Origin: Nitrososphaerales archaeon TH526
GTDB taxonomy: Archaea; Thermoproteota; Nitrososphaeria; Nitrososphaerales; Nitrososphaeraceae
Assembly: GCA_014523665.1 (NCBI GenBank)
Contig: JAATVR010000514.1
Span: 1-10,263 of the forward strand
Direction: 5' to 3'
Length of the DNA stretch: 10,263 bases
The position numbers and the translations under genes were made by a program. Shown here one piece after another: positions 3,958 to 8,333 of the stretch. The notes under the pieces were generated by a model that saw nothing but the letters and a program-made list of their open reading frames with translations, made no database searches and had not been told where the DNA came from. Numbering within the stretch: position 1 is the first letter of the stretch; the number at the start of each line of letters is the position of its first letter.

Positions 3958-4064
3958 GCTCCGGTGGTGTAGTCCGGTTAAGCATTTCGCCCTCTCAAGG
4001 CGGAGATCCCGGGTTCAATCGCATTGCGGTCATTGCCGCAACGGAACAAATCCCGGCCGGAGCA
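3958..4064 (+). tRNA. tRNA-Glu (anticodon CTC), interrupted by a 31-nt T-loop intron
   Basis: The acceptor stem GCTCCGG (3958-3964) pairs perfectly with CCGGAGC (4057-4063), with discriminator A4064 and no encoded CCA. The D arm is 3967-3985. The anticodon stem 3987-3991/3999-4003 encloses the loop CTCTCAA, giving anticodon CTC (3994-3996), which reads GAG (Glu). The T stem CCGGG (4009-4013) pairs with CCCGG (4052-4056), but the T loop TTCAA..AT is split between positions 58 and 59 by 31 nt. Removing 4019-4049 leaves a regular 76-nt tRNA with loop TTCAAAT. The intron is not at the common 37/38 position. The small number of mismatches and complete cloverleaf argue for a functional gene. Splicing would need the endonuclease encoded nearby (5135-5782). 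Confidence 0.95.
4013..4053 (+). other. Bulge-helix-bulge splice motif and intron (4019-4049) of tRNA-Glu
   Basis: The exon bases GTTC (4013-4016) pair with the intron bases GAAC (4044-4047) to form the 4-bp central helix. The 5' bulge is A4017-A4018-T4019 and the 3' bulge is A4048-A4049-A4050. Cutting after the second base of each bulge releases 4019-4049. The inner side continues with C4020-G4043 and G4021-C4042, then a 6-bp hairpin TTGCGG/CCGCAA (4024-4029/4036-4041). The outer helix is weak (G4012-U4051, G4011-C4052), so this is a relaxed form of the motif. Confidence 0.85.
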
Positions 4065-4292
4065 TTAAATATGGATGTCTCTTCAGGATTCAGAAGTCCG
4101 GTCATTCTCTTCATCTTTTCTGACACAGATTTGCCAGAATAATAGGGGGACTATCTTGCTCTTCATCATCCGGTACGATTAGCGGGATTAGATCAAAAGA
4201 TAATCCTTTATAAGTATAATCAAGTTGAGCAGGTAATTCAAAAGGTATCTACATTATTGACGCACTAAATGCAGATTGGTGTTCATCATATG
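4065..4292. other. Non-coding stretch after tRNA-Glu
   Basis: Directly downstream of the tRNA lies TTAAATATGG, then a pyrimidine-rich run (4101-4117) that may end the tRNA transcript. TTTATAAG at 4207-4214 is TATA-like in both directions. Frames of 28 codons (minus, 4083-4169) and 19 codons (plus, from 4270) are present but unsupported. Confidence 0.4.
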
Positions 4293-5134: not shown

Positions 5135-5782
5135 CTATTCTAATCGATTAGGGAGCTCCGAGTTTATTTCCCTTTCTTTGCGAAATCGGTTGTCCTTCAG
5201 CAGAAACTTCGAGGCTTTATAATAGATTACTTCCCCCCTTCGCTCGATGACCGCTAGGACAGAATTCTTTCCCATTCTGGCAGTCTGATCGATCAAGTCG
5301 TAAAGTTCTTCTATCTTCATGTTGATCCCTTCGTTTAGCGCATACACCAAATATTTTGAAGGCTTTTTCTGATGCTCTCCCCTTTCATACACCCTGAAAT
5401 CAATACCAAAGCCAAATCCGTCCTTCACGACATAGCCACGACTACGTAGGTCTCGGTACACTAGAAATCTTGTAAGTATACCATGATCGTGCTTTAGCAT
5501 CTTTTTTATCAGCTGCTCAAAACCGATAGTGTCGTCTTCATTGTTTTTTATTACCAACCTGTTTGTAAACGATAAAAAGAGCGCCTCACAATAGCTAAGG
5601 ATGAACTGCGAATCCTGATTTTCGCCGAACCCCTTTGATCTCAGCTGATCTTGGCATCTCGTTTCATTTACCATGATCTTGGTCTCTCCAGCTGGCATGG
5701 TTGCTTCAATCAAATATGATATATCGAGGTCTGAACCCTCAATATCGGCTGACATAACGAATAAATCGGAGCCAGTCCACAT
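5135..5782 (-). CDS. endA: tRNA-intron endonuclease EndA (tRNA-splicing endonuclease)
   Basis: Cuts pre-tRNAs (and pre-rRNA) at bulge-helix-bulge motifs, giving 2',3'-cyclic phosphate and 5'-OH ends for ligation by RtcB. 215 aa. The N-terminal domain (1-98) contains the R-S-K-G-F-G-E segment (48-54). The C-terminal catalytic domain has the family signature from R105: F-L-V-Y-R-D-L-R-S-R-G-Y-V-V-K, then G-F-G-F-G-I-D-F-R-V-Y132-E-R-G, S142-K-Y-L-V, and an A-R-M-G-K172 helix before V-L-A-V-I. Y132 and K172 fit the catalytic Tyr and Lys. The catalytic His is unclear: H137 lies only 5 residues after Tyr, while the place about 10 residues on, just before S-K-Y-L-V, is P141. Length suits a single-repeat subunit. 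The start could also be M10 (5753-5755), because the promoter position is ambiguous. Divergent from rpl10e. Confidence 0.92.
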   Translation of the reverse strand: MWTGSDLFVMSADIEGSDLDISYLIEATMPAGETKIMVNETRCQDQLRSKGFGENQDSQFILSYCEALFLSFTNRLVIKNNEDDTIGFEQLIKKMLKHDHGILTRFLVYRDLRSRGYVVKDGFGFGIDFRVYERGEHQKKPSKYLVYALNEGINMKIEELYDLIDQTARMGKNSVLAVIERRGEVIYYKASKFLLKDNRFRKEREINSELPNRLE

Positions 5783-6668: not shown

Positions 6669-8333
6669 TTATTGCATCCTTATTTGAACTGCTCGGAGAA
6701 CTGACACATCACTTGTCTCTGCTCCTACCATGAGCGTATAATTACCTGATTCCAATTCTTGCGTTGGCGTTATTATAAGGCTTATCTGCTTGGTTTGTCC
6801 TGGATCTAATCTAACCGAGTTCTCGCTAAATAATCCTGAGAGATTGCCCAGATTACCTGTCGTGGTAAAGGAACCAGCTGCCAACATGTCTGCAGTCAAA
6901 TTAGTATTCGTGTTCGAAGTAACGTTTATTCTAATCTCCTCATTCCCTCCTCTTTGCAGAGTAATGTTGTTAGGTAAAACAGAGATAGATATAGGTAAAA
7001 CTCTCTCAGTCAGCACCCTGCCAAGTTTATTTTCAGACCATTCTGAAAACCATACTTCGTTGTGATTGTCCACGTCAAATTGCAAAGCATTACTTATTCC
7101 ACATTGATTGACACTGTCTCGACATGGTCCCCAAAGCTTGTTTTGGGAAGGAATCCAATATTCCGTGAGTGTCAAATTATTAGGATTAAAGCTTGATATC
7201 TTGTTTCCTGTATGTTGGTTGAACCATATTGTACCGTTTTCGCCTGTCTTTATCCAATATGGTAACGTATAGGCTGCATTTACAGTCGTGCTTTGTCCTA
7301 AGGTTCTTGGAGAGACTGTAGAGGTTGTAAACTTCGTGATGTCTCCCGAAGTAGGATCGAGTCTATAAAAAATACTAGTCCCATGGTCAGTAACCCATAA
7401 GTTATCATTGAGATCAAGTGTTAATCCTACTGGGGAGGTGATATCATCCGGCATTTCATAAGAAGTAAAGGTTTTATTCTTAAGATCATAACCCAAGATC
7501 TCTCCTTTCGTATTGAAGGCAAGCAAAGAAACATACAGTCTATCATTATCCTTATCCAAGACAATTGAACCTGTGCTTACAAGATCTGGGTCTATTCCCT
7601 TAAATGAGTCGAGCGGAATTCCTATGCGTTCTATTCCTTCAGCTGTACCGTTCCTCATTTGAGAAATGTTACCTATCCATATGGACGGAGATCTTATTCC
7701 AACAAAGTAAATATTGCTACCATTATCATCTATCTCCATCGAAACCGGATACGTTGTTCCGAAGGCCTCGGGTTTCTCTGGGACCGTAAACATTTCAAAG
7801 GATCTTGTGTCATTCGAAAATCTCCACAAAGCATTCTGTGTTTCGTCGGTAAACCAGATATCTCCCTTATTGTCAATGTCAAGATCCCAAACCTGTGAGG
7901 ACATTGTCGGGTTTTCCCTAGCAGGCCAGCTTGGAATTTTATACTCTTCTTCAAATGTGTTGTTACCTAGATCGTACCTTCCCAACGTACCATTCTTTGT
8001 AGAAACGTACCAAATATTTTGGTCCTGAGAATCTACACCGATGGCTAAGGGCATCTCGCAAAGAGCTGGAAGAGGATATTCGATAACAAGGGAGCTCGAA
8101 TTGGGATGTGAATTTAGTCCACAGAATTGGGTATTGAACTTTTCTACTGCGTCTGCTCTAGAACCTGAAACGAGCTCAGAGACATCATCATTACCCTTTT
8201 GGGATGGACCTGAAGTAATACTGGAGGAATATACCAATGAAAACCCTACGATTGCGATGATGGCAAGAACTACAAAGATGACTATTTTCTTCTTACCAAA
8301 TTGTTTTGATTTGTTCCCCCTTTTTTCTGCCAA
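6669..8333 (-). CDS. Membrane-anchored Vgb/SMP-30-like seven-bladed beta-propeller with C-terminal Ig-like domain
   Basis: 554 aa. A Lys-rich cytoplasmic head (1-16) and one transmembrane helix (17-37) leave the rest outside. Residues 85-440 contain about seven repeats of a pattern h-x-h-D-x-x-[DN]-x-[IL]-W-[FV]-[TS], seen around 97-112, 149-163, 198-212, 256-270, 302-316, 362-374 and 417-431, most followed by a strand ending E-Y-x-[IM]-P. This is the virginiamycin-B-lyase/SMP-30-like propeller layout. The lyase function is not implied; in archaea such proteins are usually uncharacterised. Residues 445-554 form a beta-sandwich resembling alpha-galactosidase-associated (NEW3-like) domains. Many N-x-[ST] sequons suggest glycosylation; C71, C92, C404 and C411 may form disulphides. 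The start is TTG 8331-8333, 24-35 bp after the TATA box; no ATG lies near. Confidence 0.88.
   Translation of the reverse strand: MAEKRGNKSKQFGKKKIVIFVVLAIIAIVGFSLVYSSSITSGPSQKGNDDVSELVSGSRADAVEKFNTQFCGLNSHPNSSSLVIEYPLPALCEMPLAIGVDSQDQNIWYVSTKNGTLGRYDLGNNTFEEEYKIPSWPARENPTMSSQVWDLDIDNKGDIWFTDETQNALWRFSNDTRSFEMFTVPEKPEAFGTTYPVSMEIDDNGSNIYFVGIRSPSIWIGNISQMRNGTAEGIERIGIPLDSFKGIDPDLVSTGSIVLDKDNDRLYVSLLAFNTKGEILGYDLKNKTFTSYEMPDDITSPVGLTLDLNDNLWVTDHGTSIFYRLDPTSGDITKFTTSTVSPRTLGQSTTVNAAYTLPYWIKTGENGTIWFNQHTGNKISSFNPNNLTLTEYWIPSQNKLWGPCRDSVNQCGISNALQFDVDNHNEVWFSEWSENKLGRVLTERVLPISISVLPNNITLQRGGNEEIRINVTSNTNTNLTADMLAAGSFTTTGNLGNLSGLFSENSVRLDPGQTKQISLIITPTQELESGNYTLMVGAETSDVSVLRAVQIRMQ

Follow-up and report, generated by a model that had tools for sequence, protein, structure and literature searches.

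How a tRNA gene whose T-loop is interrupted can yield a normal tRNA, and how the interruption came to be there, is the question raised by a locus in the draft genome of Nitrososphaerales archaeon TH526. Direct reading of the window, i.e. the whole 10,263-nt stretch of DNA analysed, reveals a tRNA-Glu(CTC) gene on the plus strand at positions 3958–4064, interrupted by a 31-nt intron at 4019–4049 that lies in the T-loop between tRNA positions 58 and 59, a site other than 37/38. Exon 1 (3958–4018; tRNA positions 1–58) ends in ...GGGTTCAA, the last base being 4018, and exon 2 (4050–4064; positions 59–73) resumes with ATCCCGG. The acceptor arm is formed by GCTCCGG (3958–3964) and CCGGAGC (4057–4063) followed by A4064, the anticodon CTC lies in the loop CTCTCAA, and the T-stem pairs CCGGG with CCCGG. 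Joining the exons produces a 76-nt tRNA with the T-loop TTCAAAT, which ARAGORN reads as tRNA-Glu(ctc); the complete cloverleaf is regained upon removal of the intron. The gene identity, intron boundaries and 58/59 position given in a preliminary description of this DNA were confirmed by direct reading, by comparison with relatives and by ARAGORN on the spliced form, and its claim of an exact rejoining to TTCAAAT in a 76-nt form held for the joined exons. It is very probable that the intron is of the ordinary protein-spliced archaeal type, though at a noncanonical site, and that it is excised.

The preliminary description proposed a bulge-helix-bulge (BHB) motif with a 4-bp central helix and two 3-nt bulges, a claim that stands in part. 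GTTC of the T-arm (4013–4016; G53, T54, T55 and C56 of the tRNA) is complementary over 4 bp to GAAC within the intron (4044–4047), and the 5' bulge, AAT (4017–4019; A A|T, predicted cut after 4018), is indeed 3 nt long. The 3' bulge (4048–4050; A A|A, predicted cut after 4049) measures 3 nt only if the outer helix is shifted and reduced to 2 bp (G52-U60, G51-C61); in the natural register of the T-stem, because G53 is already used by the GTTC/GAAC helix, the stem resumes at G52-C62 and leaves a 5-nt bulge, AAAUC. The predicted motif is a relaxed BHB rather than a strict one, since its 3' bulge spans 5 nt in the natural register. Inside the central helix, the intron carries an inner helix and hairpin (4020–4043; CG/CG, then TTGCGG/CCGCAA). 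Minimum-free-energy folding of the precursor does not recover the BHB, and locally the T-stem is favoured over the central helix. This weakens the structural argument; the case for the intron rests on conservation.

Conservation was examined in the genus (g1; five genomes, G000–G004, with the present genome as G000) and in a family set of 61 genomes that includes it. The orthologue comparison suggested in the preliminary description places an intron at 58/59 in all five members of the genus. None of the 76 exon positions varies across these genomes, against 8 of 31 in the intron, 22 of 60 in the upstream flank and 6 of 24 in the downstream flank; flank identity is 79–82%. Within the drifting intron, the central-helix complement GAAC and the inner GCGG/CCGC pairing are kept in 5/5 genomes. 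When named genomes were scanned for a tRNA-Glu carrying an insert of this kind, seven records were obtained, the introns of four being those of G001–G004.

These data bear on the reading that the gene is a dead pseudogene whose T-arm was broken by an insertion. The interrupted T-loop, the truncation of the gene by ARAGORN on raw DNA and the presence of a partial tRNA-Glu copy on contig C56 would all fit such a history, but exon identity in all five genus members, set against drifting introns and flanks, rules it out for practical purposes and leaves it the slimmest of chances. In addition, the insert retains the complement of GTTC, and a DNA search of the draft genome found no second intact tRNA-Glu(CTC), although in an assembly of 833 contigs (96.6% complete, 5.3% contamination) this absence is not absolute. 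The preliminary description had named such a second copy as the case against an active gene; the search gave only the 3' fragment on contig C56 and a tRNA-Glu(TTC). The latter (contig C791, 2426–2533; L005 627–734, minus strand) has a D-loop insert and is missed by ARAGORN.

In the family, tRNA-Glu(CTC) could be read in 46 genomes, the gene not being read in the remaining 15. An intron at 58/59 is present in 8 of the 46 and absent from 38: the carriers are 5/5 genomes of g1 and 3/10 of a second genus, g12 (G032, G051 and G060). The introns of G051, G060 and a named record of the same type (L102) are 34 nt long, have GGAT or GGAC as the complement and look unrelated to that of g1. Among the 38 genomes without a 58/59 intron, three of genus g2 (G005, G016 and G023) have an altered 5' part of tRNA-Glu(CTC), which suggests a D-arm intron there. 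The 8/46 distribution, together with the unlike introns of g1 and g12, points to repeated gain or loss of the Glu 58/59 intron in the family. The intron is not required for tRNA-Glu(CTC), since 38 of the 46 genomes have none, and the intron-plus and intron-minus relatives constitute a natural series for testing tRNA intron gain.

The same site is interrupted in a second tRNA. Of 101 genomes searched for the pattern GGGTTCRA-N10-40-GAAC-NN-ATCCC, 22 contained it, with 28 matches in all; the same pattern reversed, used as a control, gave 0. By reading, six matches were tRNA-Glu, 18 were tRNA-Trp(CCA) and four were false (three without a tRNA, one extending beyond a tRNA-Pro). With a single tRNA-Trp gene as the query of a DNA search, 52 of the 101 genomes gave a match, all within the family, and the 58/59 intron is present in 51/51 family genomes in which the gene is readable to its end; this count leaves out the present genome, whose contig C502 stops inside the gene, and nine family genomes without a match. 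With the spliced family sequence as query, no tRNA-Trp was recognised in 30 loci from 18 genomes of other families of the order. The tRNA-Trp(CCA) of the family shares with tRNA-Glu the site of its T-loop intron and differs from it in having two introns, the other being an anticodon-loop insert, and in that ARAGORN reports no tRNA at the 10 Trp loci given to it. Among 46 distinct Trp T-loop introns, 23–33 nt in length, GRRY stands opposite GTTC in all 46 (GAAC 25, GAAT 11, GGAC 7, GGAT 3). The complement thus changes only in ways that keep pairing with GTTC, and the central helix is maintained in evolution in the Trp introns as in the five Glu introns of the genus. In this family, then, each of the 51 genomes in which tRNA-Trp was read has an interrupted T-loop in that tRNA, and some genomes have one in tRNA-Glu(CTC); in both, normal folding of the elbow would presumably have to await splicing.

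Sequences from more distant genomes of the phylum point to a wider use of the site. In 398 genomes, the present one included, the pattern gave 13 matches in nine genomes (reversed control, 4 matches); three of the 13 are the family's own and two show no tRNA. G306, of another family (f25), has 58/59 introns in tRNA-Pro CGG, tRNA-Pro TGG, tRNA-Met and tRNA-Glu CTC (loci L167, L169, L171 and L172), while G435 has two matches, one a tRNA-Arg CCG, G462 has one tRNA-His and G290 one tRNA-like sequence. Because introns are found there in G306 and other distant genomes, the 58/59 site as read from sequence is not peculiar to Nitrososphaeraceae. The G306 introns share with that of tRNA-Glu in the window both the site and the GAAC complement; they begin with TCGG, end in CCGGAACA plus one base and are alike among themselves, unlike the introns of Nitrososphaeraceae, which have diverged. 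Such likeness in four tRNAs recommends G306 as an example in which introns may have spread recently.

Noncanonical archaeal tRNA introns, including those of the T-arm and T-loop, are already known, and tRNA-Glu(CTC) adds a member. It resembles the noncanonical BHB introns of Thermoproteales and Thaumarchaeota in being short, in lying off 37/38, in its BHB-type pairing and in giving a normal spliced tRNA. Thaumarchaeota have many noncanonical introns, according to the portion of PMC8450103 consulted, and BHB motifs in the T-loop of archaeal pre-tRNAs, cleaved there, are described in the part of PMC6379350 available to us. A review list of intron sites contains T-arm positions (53/54, 56/57 and 59/60 among the sites given); in the part of that review at hand (PMC4090602), 58/59 is missing from the printed list, which ends in "etc." The portion of PMC4033280 at hand makes no mention of Thaumarchaeota or of the T-loop. 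What distinguishes the present case from published noncanonical introns is that one site recurs: it is used in tRNA-Glu and, throughout the family genomes read, in tRNA-Trp as well. No description of the family-wide tRNA-Trp T-loop intron was found in the literature, of which part was covered, and no priority is claimed.

The data presented above lead us to propose a model for the maturation of tRNA-Glu(CTC) whereby GTTC of the T-arm pairs with GAAC at the 3' end of the intron to form a relaxed BHB in the pre-tRNA, allowing a heteromeric splicing endonuclease to cut in both bulges, after 4018 and after 4049. A tRNA ligase would then join the exons to give the 76-nt tRNA, with T-loop modification and elbow folding expected to follow splicing, as the preliminary description also supposed. 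The T-arm hardly varies and so would always offer GTTC as one strand of a central helix, which may be the reason for repeated use of the site 58/59. The genome contains two PF01974 genes, corresponding to two splicing-endonuclease subunits. The one in the window (5135–5782, minus strand; PF01974 and PF02778) has Pro aligned to the catalytic His of 1a79_A, which we take to be the M. jannaschii endonuclease, and probably encodes the structural subunit, an assignment that is likely rather than certain because another His occurs a few residues before the aligned Pro. The other, the catalytic subunit, is on contig C78; it matches endonuclease chain 3p1z_B of A. pernix (E 4.1e-43), with few gaps over residues 8–184, and its Tyr, His and Lys positions are conserved. 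Two-gene (alpha-beta)2 enzymes with a Crenarchaea-specific loop have broad specificity, according to the same portion of PMC6379350. The endonuclease gene of the window lies 1.1 kb from tRNA-Glu(CTC), a closeness that may be due to chance.

With regard to the source of the intron, a spliced insert may have been copied into tRNA-Glu from the tRNA-Trp T-loop intron between identical GGGTTCAA/ATCCC targets. This proposal concerns origin and is compatible with a protein-spliced intron. The Glu and Trp introns share position and flanks, and tRNA-to-tRNA transposition of introns is described for Thermoproteales in the part of PMC4090602 consulted. When the five g1 Glu introns were compared with the Trp introns, the best score was reached by 6 to 26 of 1000 structure-keeping shuffles, and the best Trp match always came from one other genus, g12 (shared GCGGT...CCGC); the five tests are not independent, however, and the best pair was chosen from 46 introns, the shuffles being handled alike. 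The genus's own tRNA-Trp introns are unlike its Glu intron, and for G051, G060 and L102 the Glu intron displays no Trp likeness (of 300 plain shuffles, 213, 226 and 222, respectively, score at least as high). Transposition from tRNA-Trp is a doubtful account, at perhaps one chance in several, and the likeness between g1 Glu and g12 Trp introns may be taken as a lead, not as proof.

The fragment on contig C56 enters a bolder version of this idea. Positions 2023–2093 (L004 624–694) match window positions 4018–4088 at 96% and contain the last base of exon 1, the intron, exon 2 and 24 nt of trailer, so that the likeness starts at the 5' splice site of tRNA-Glu(CTC). Such a boundary would be expected if a cleaved precursor had been copied into DNA, on evidence that is thin, being one junction in a draft assembly; contamination or misassembly is a possible explanation as well. 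If the copy does derive from a half-spliced precursor, it would point to an RNA-mediated route of intron spread. It is quite unlikely, though conceivable, that tRNA introns have landed repeatedly in the T-loop in Nitrososphaeraceae, with the old tRNA-Trp intron as donor, tRNA-Glu(CTC) as recipient more than once, and the C56 fragment as the DNA copy of a half-spliced precursor integrating elsewhere. The fragment stands behind an ORF with what we take to be the look of a CAP/SCP-type secreted protein. That contig C56 marks the integration site of an element inserted in a tRNA is a further, less favoured possibility: the matches of this contig in G003 and G004 begin beyond the fragment, at C56 positions 2240 and 2245, and the stretches examined upstream of them contain no match to the fragment.

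The warning in the preliminary description that standard tRNA finders can fail on this gene was borne out. On raw DNA, ARAGORN truncates tRNA-Glu(CTC), ending at 4049 with intron letters as the 3' end, and Rfam gives no match anywhere along the window at E values up to 0.1; in a whole-genome search with a tRNA model, the gene was not among the 45 matches listed (150 of 261 candidates scored). Given seven Glu loci, ARAGORN truncated six and missed one (L053), besides its silence on the tRNA-Trp loci, and of nine sources (five Glu and four Trp) the Rfam tRNA model, run with its gathering cutoff, recovered one, a tRNA-Trp. The general finders tried thus truncate or miss genes with T-loop introns, with consequences for annotation and for any claim that a tRNA is missing. 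tRNAscan-SE 2.0 contains a BHB model trained on Thaumarchaeota introns, with 107 noncanonical introns reported there, according to the portion of PMC8450103 consulted.

Many more tRNAs of this genome appear by eye to be interrupted, some off 37/38 (L022, L026, L027, L031, L033–L035 and several of L193–L205); examples are D-arm inserts in tRNA-Arg CCT, Asp GTC and Gln, and an insert near the variable loop in Lys CTT. Several pairs of contigs (C213/C788, C269/C270, C115/C151, C167/C390 and C81/C82) have the same tRNA on both members, often near a contig end, as if the assembly had branched at tRNA genes.

Elsewhere in the window, positions 6669–8333 on the minus strand encode a 554-aa protein with a match to Pfam Vgb_lyase (E 9.3e-21), a family name that says nothing certain on its role. 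Adjoining tRNA-Glu(CTC) is a conserved element about 104 nt long (4080–4183, minus strand). With model R1 and strict filters, it has one match each in 54 of the 61 family genomes, and 40 further genomes of the order give no match; it has no Rfam match up to E 0.1. It adjoins tRNA-Glu in many genera, lies 2–5 kb away in G015, G027 and G032, and is far from it in g2, G007 and G018. On the minus strand it reads ATGATGA, GATAGTCC, a central hairpin, GATGAAG and then ACCGGACTNCTGA, with complementary ends. By eye, the stem of the central hairpin seems altered on both sides between genera; RNAalifold pairs only nine positions, the central hairpin not among them, and gives a score of −3.7 against column shuffles with a mean of −0.1 and a lowest value of −3.0 (opposite strand, −4.3). 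A role as a guide for D-loop modification of tRNA-Glu, through pairing of ACCGGACUA with TAGTCCGGT, was rejected, as the element does not follow the change of the tRNA to TAGGCCGG in genus g6. A tiny ORF is a possible explanation of the conservation; the element is a candidate single-copy small RNA, perhaps C/D-box-like, and may merit more attention.
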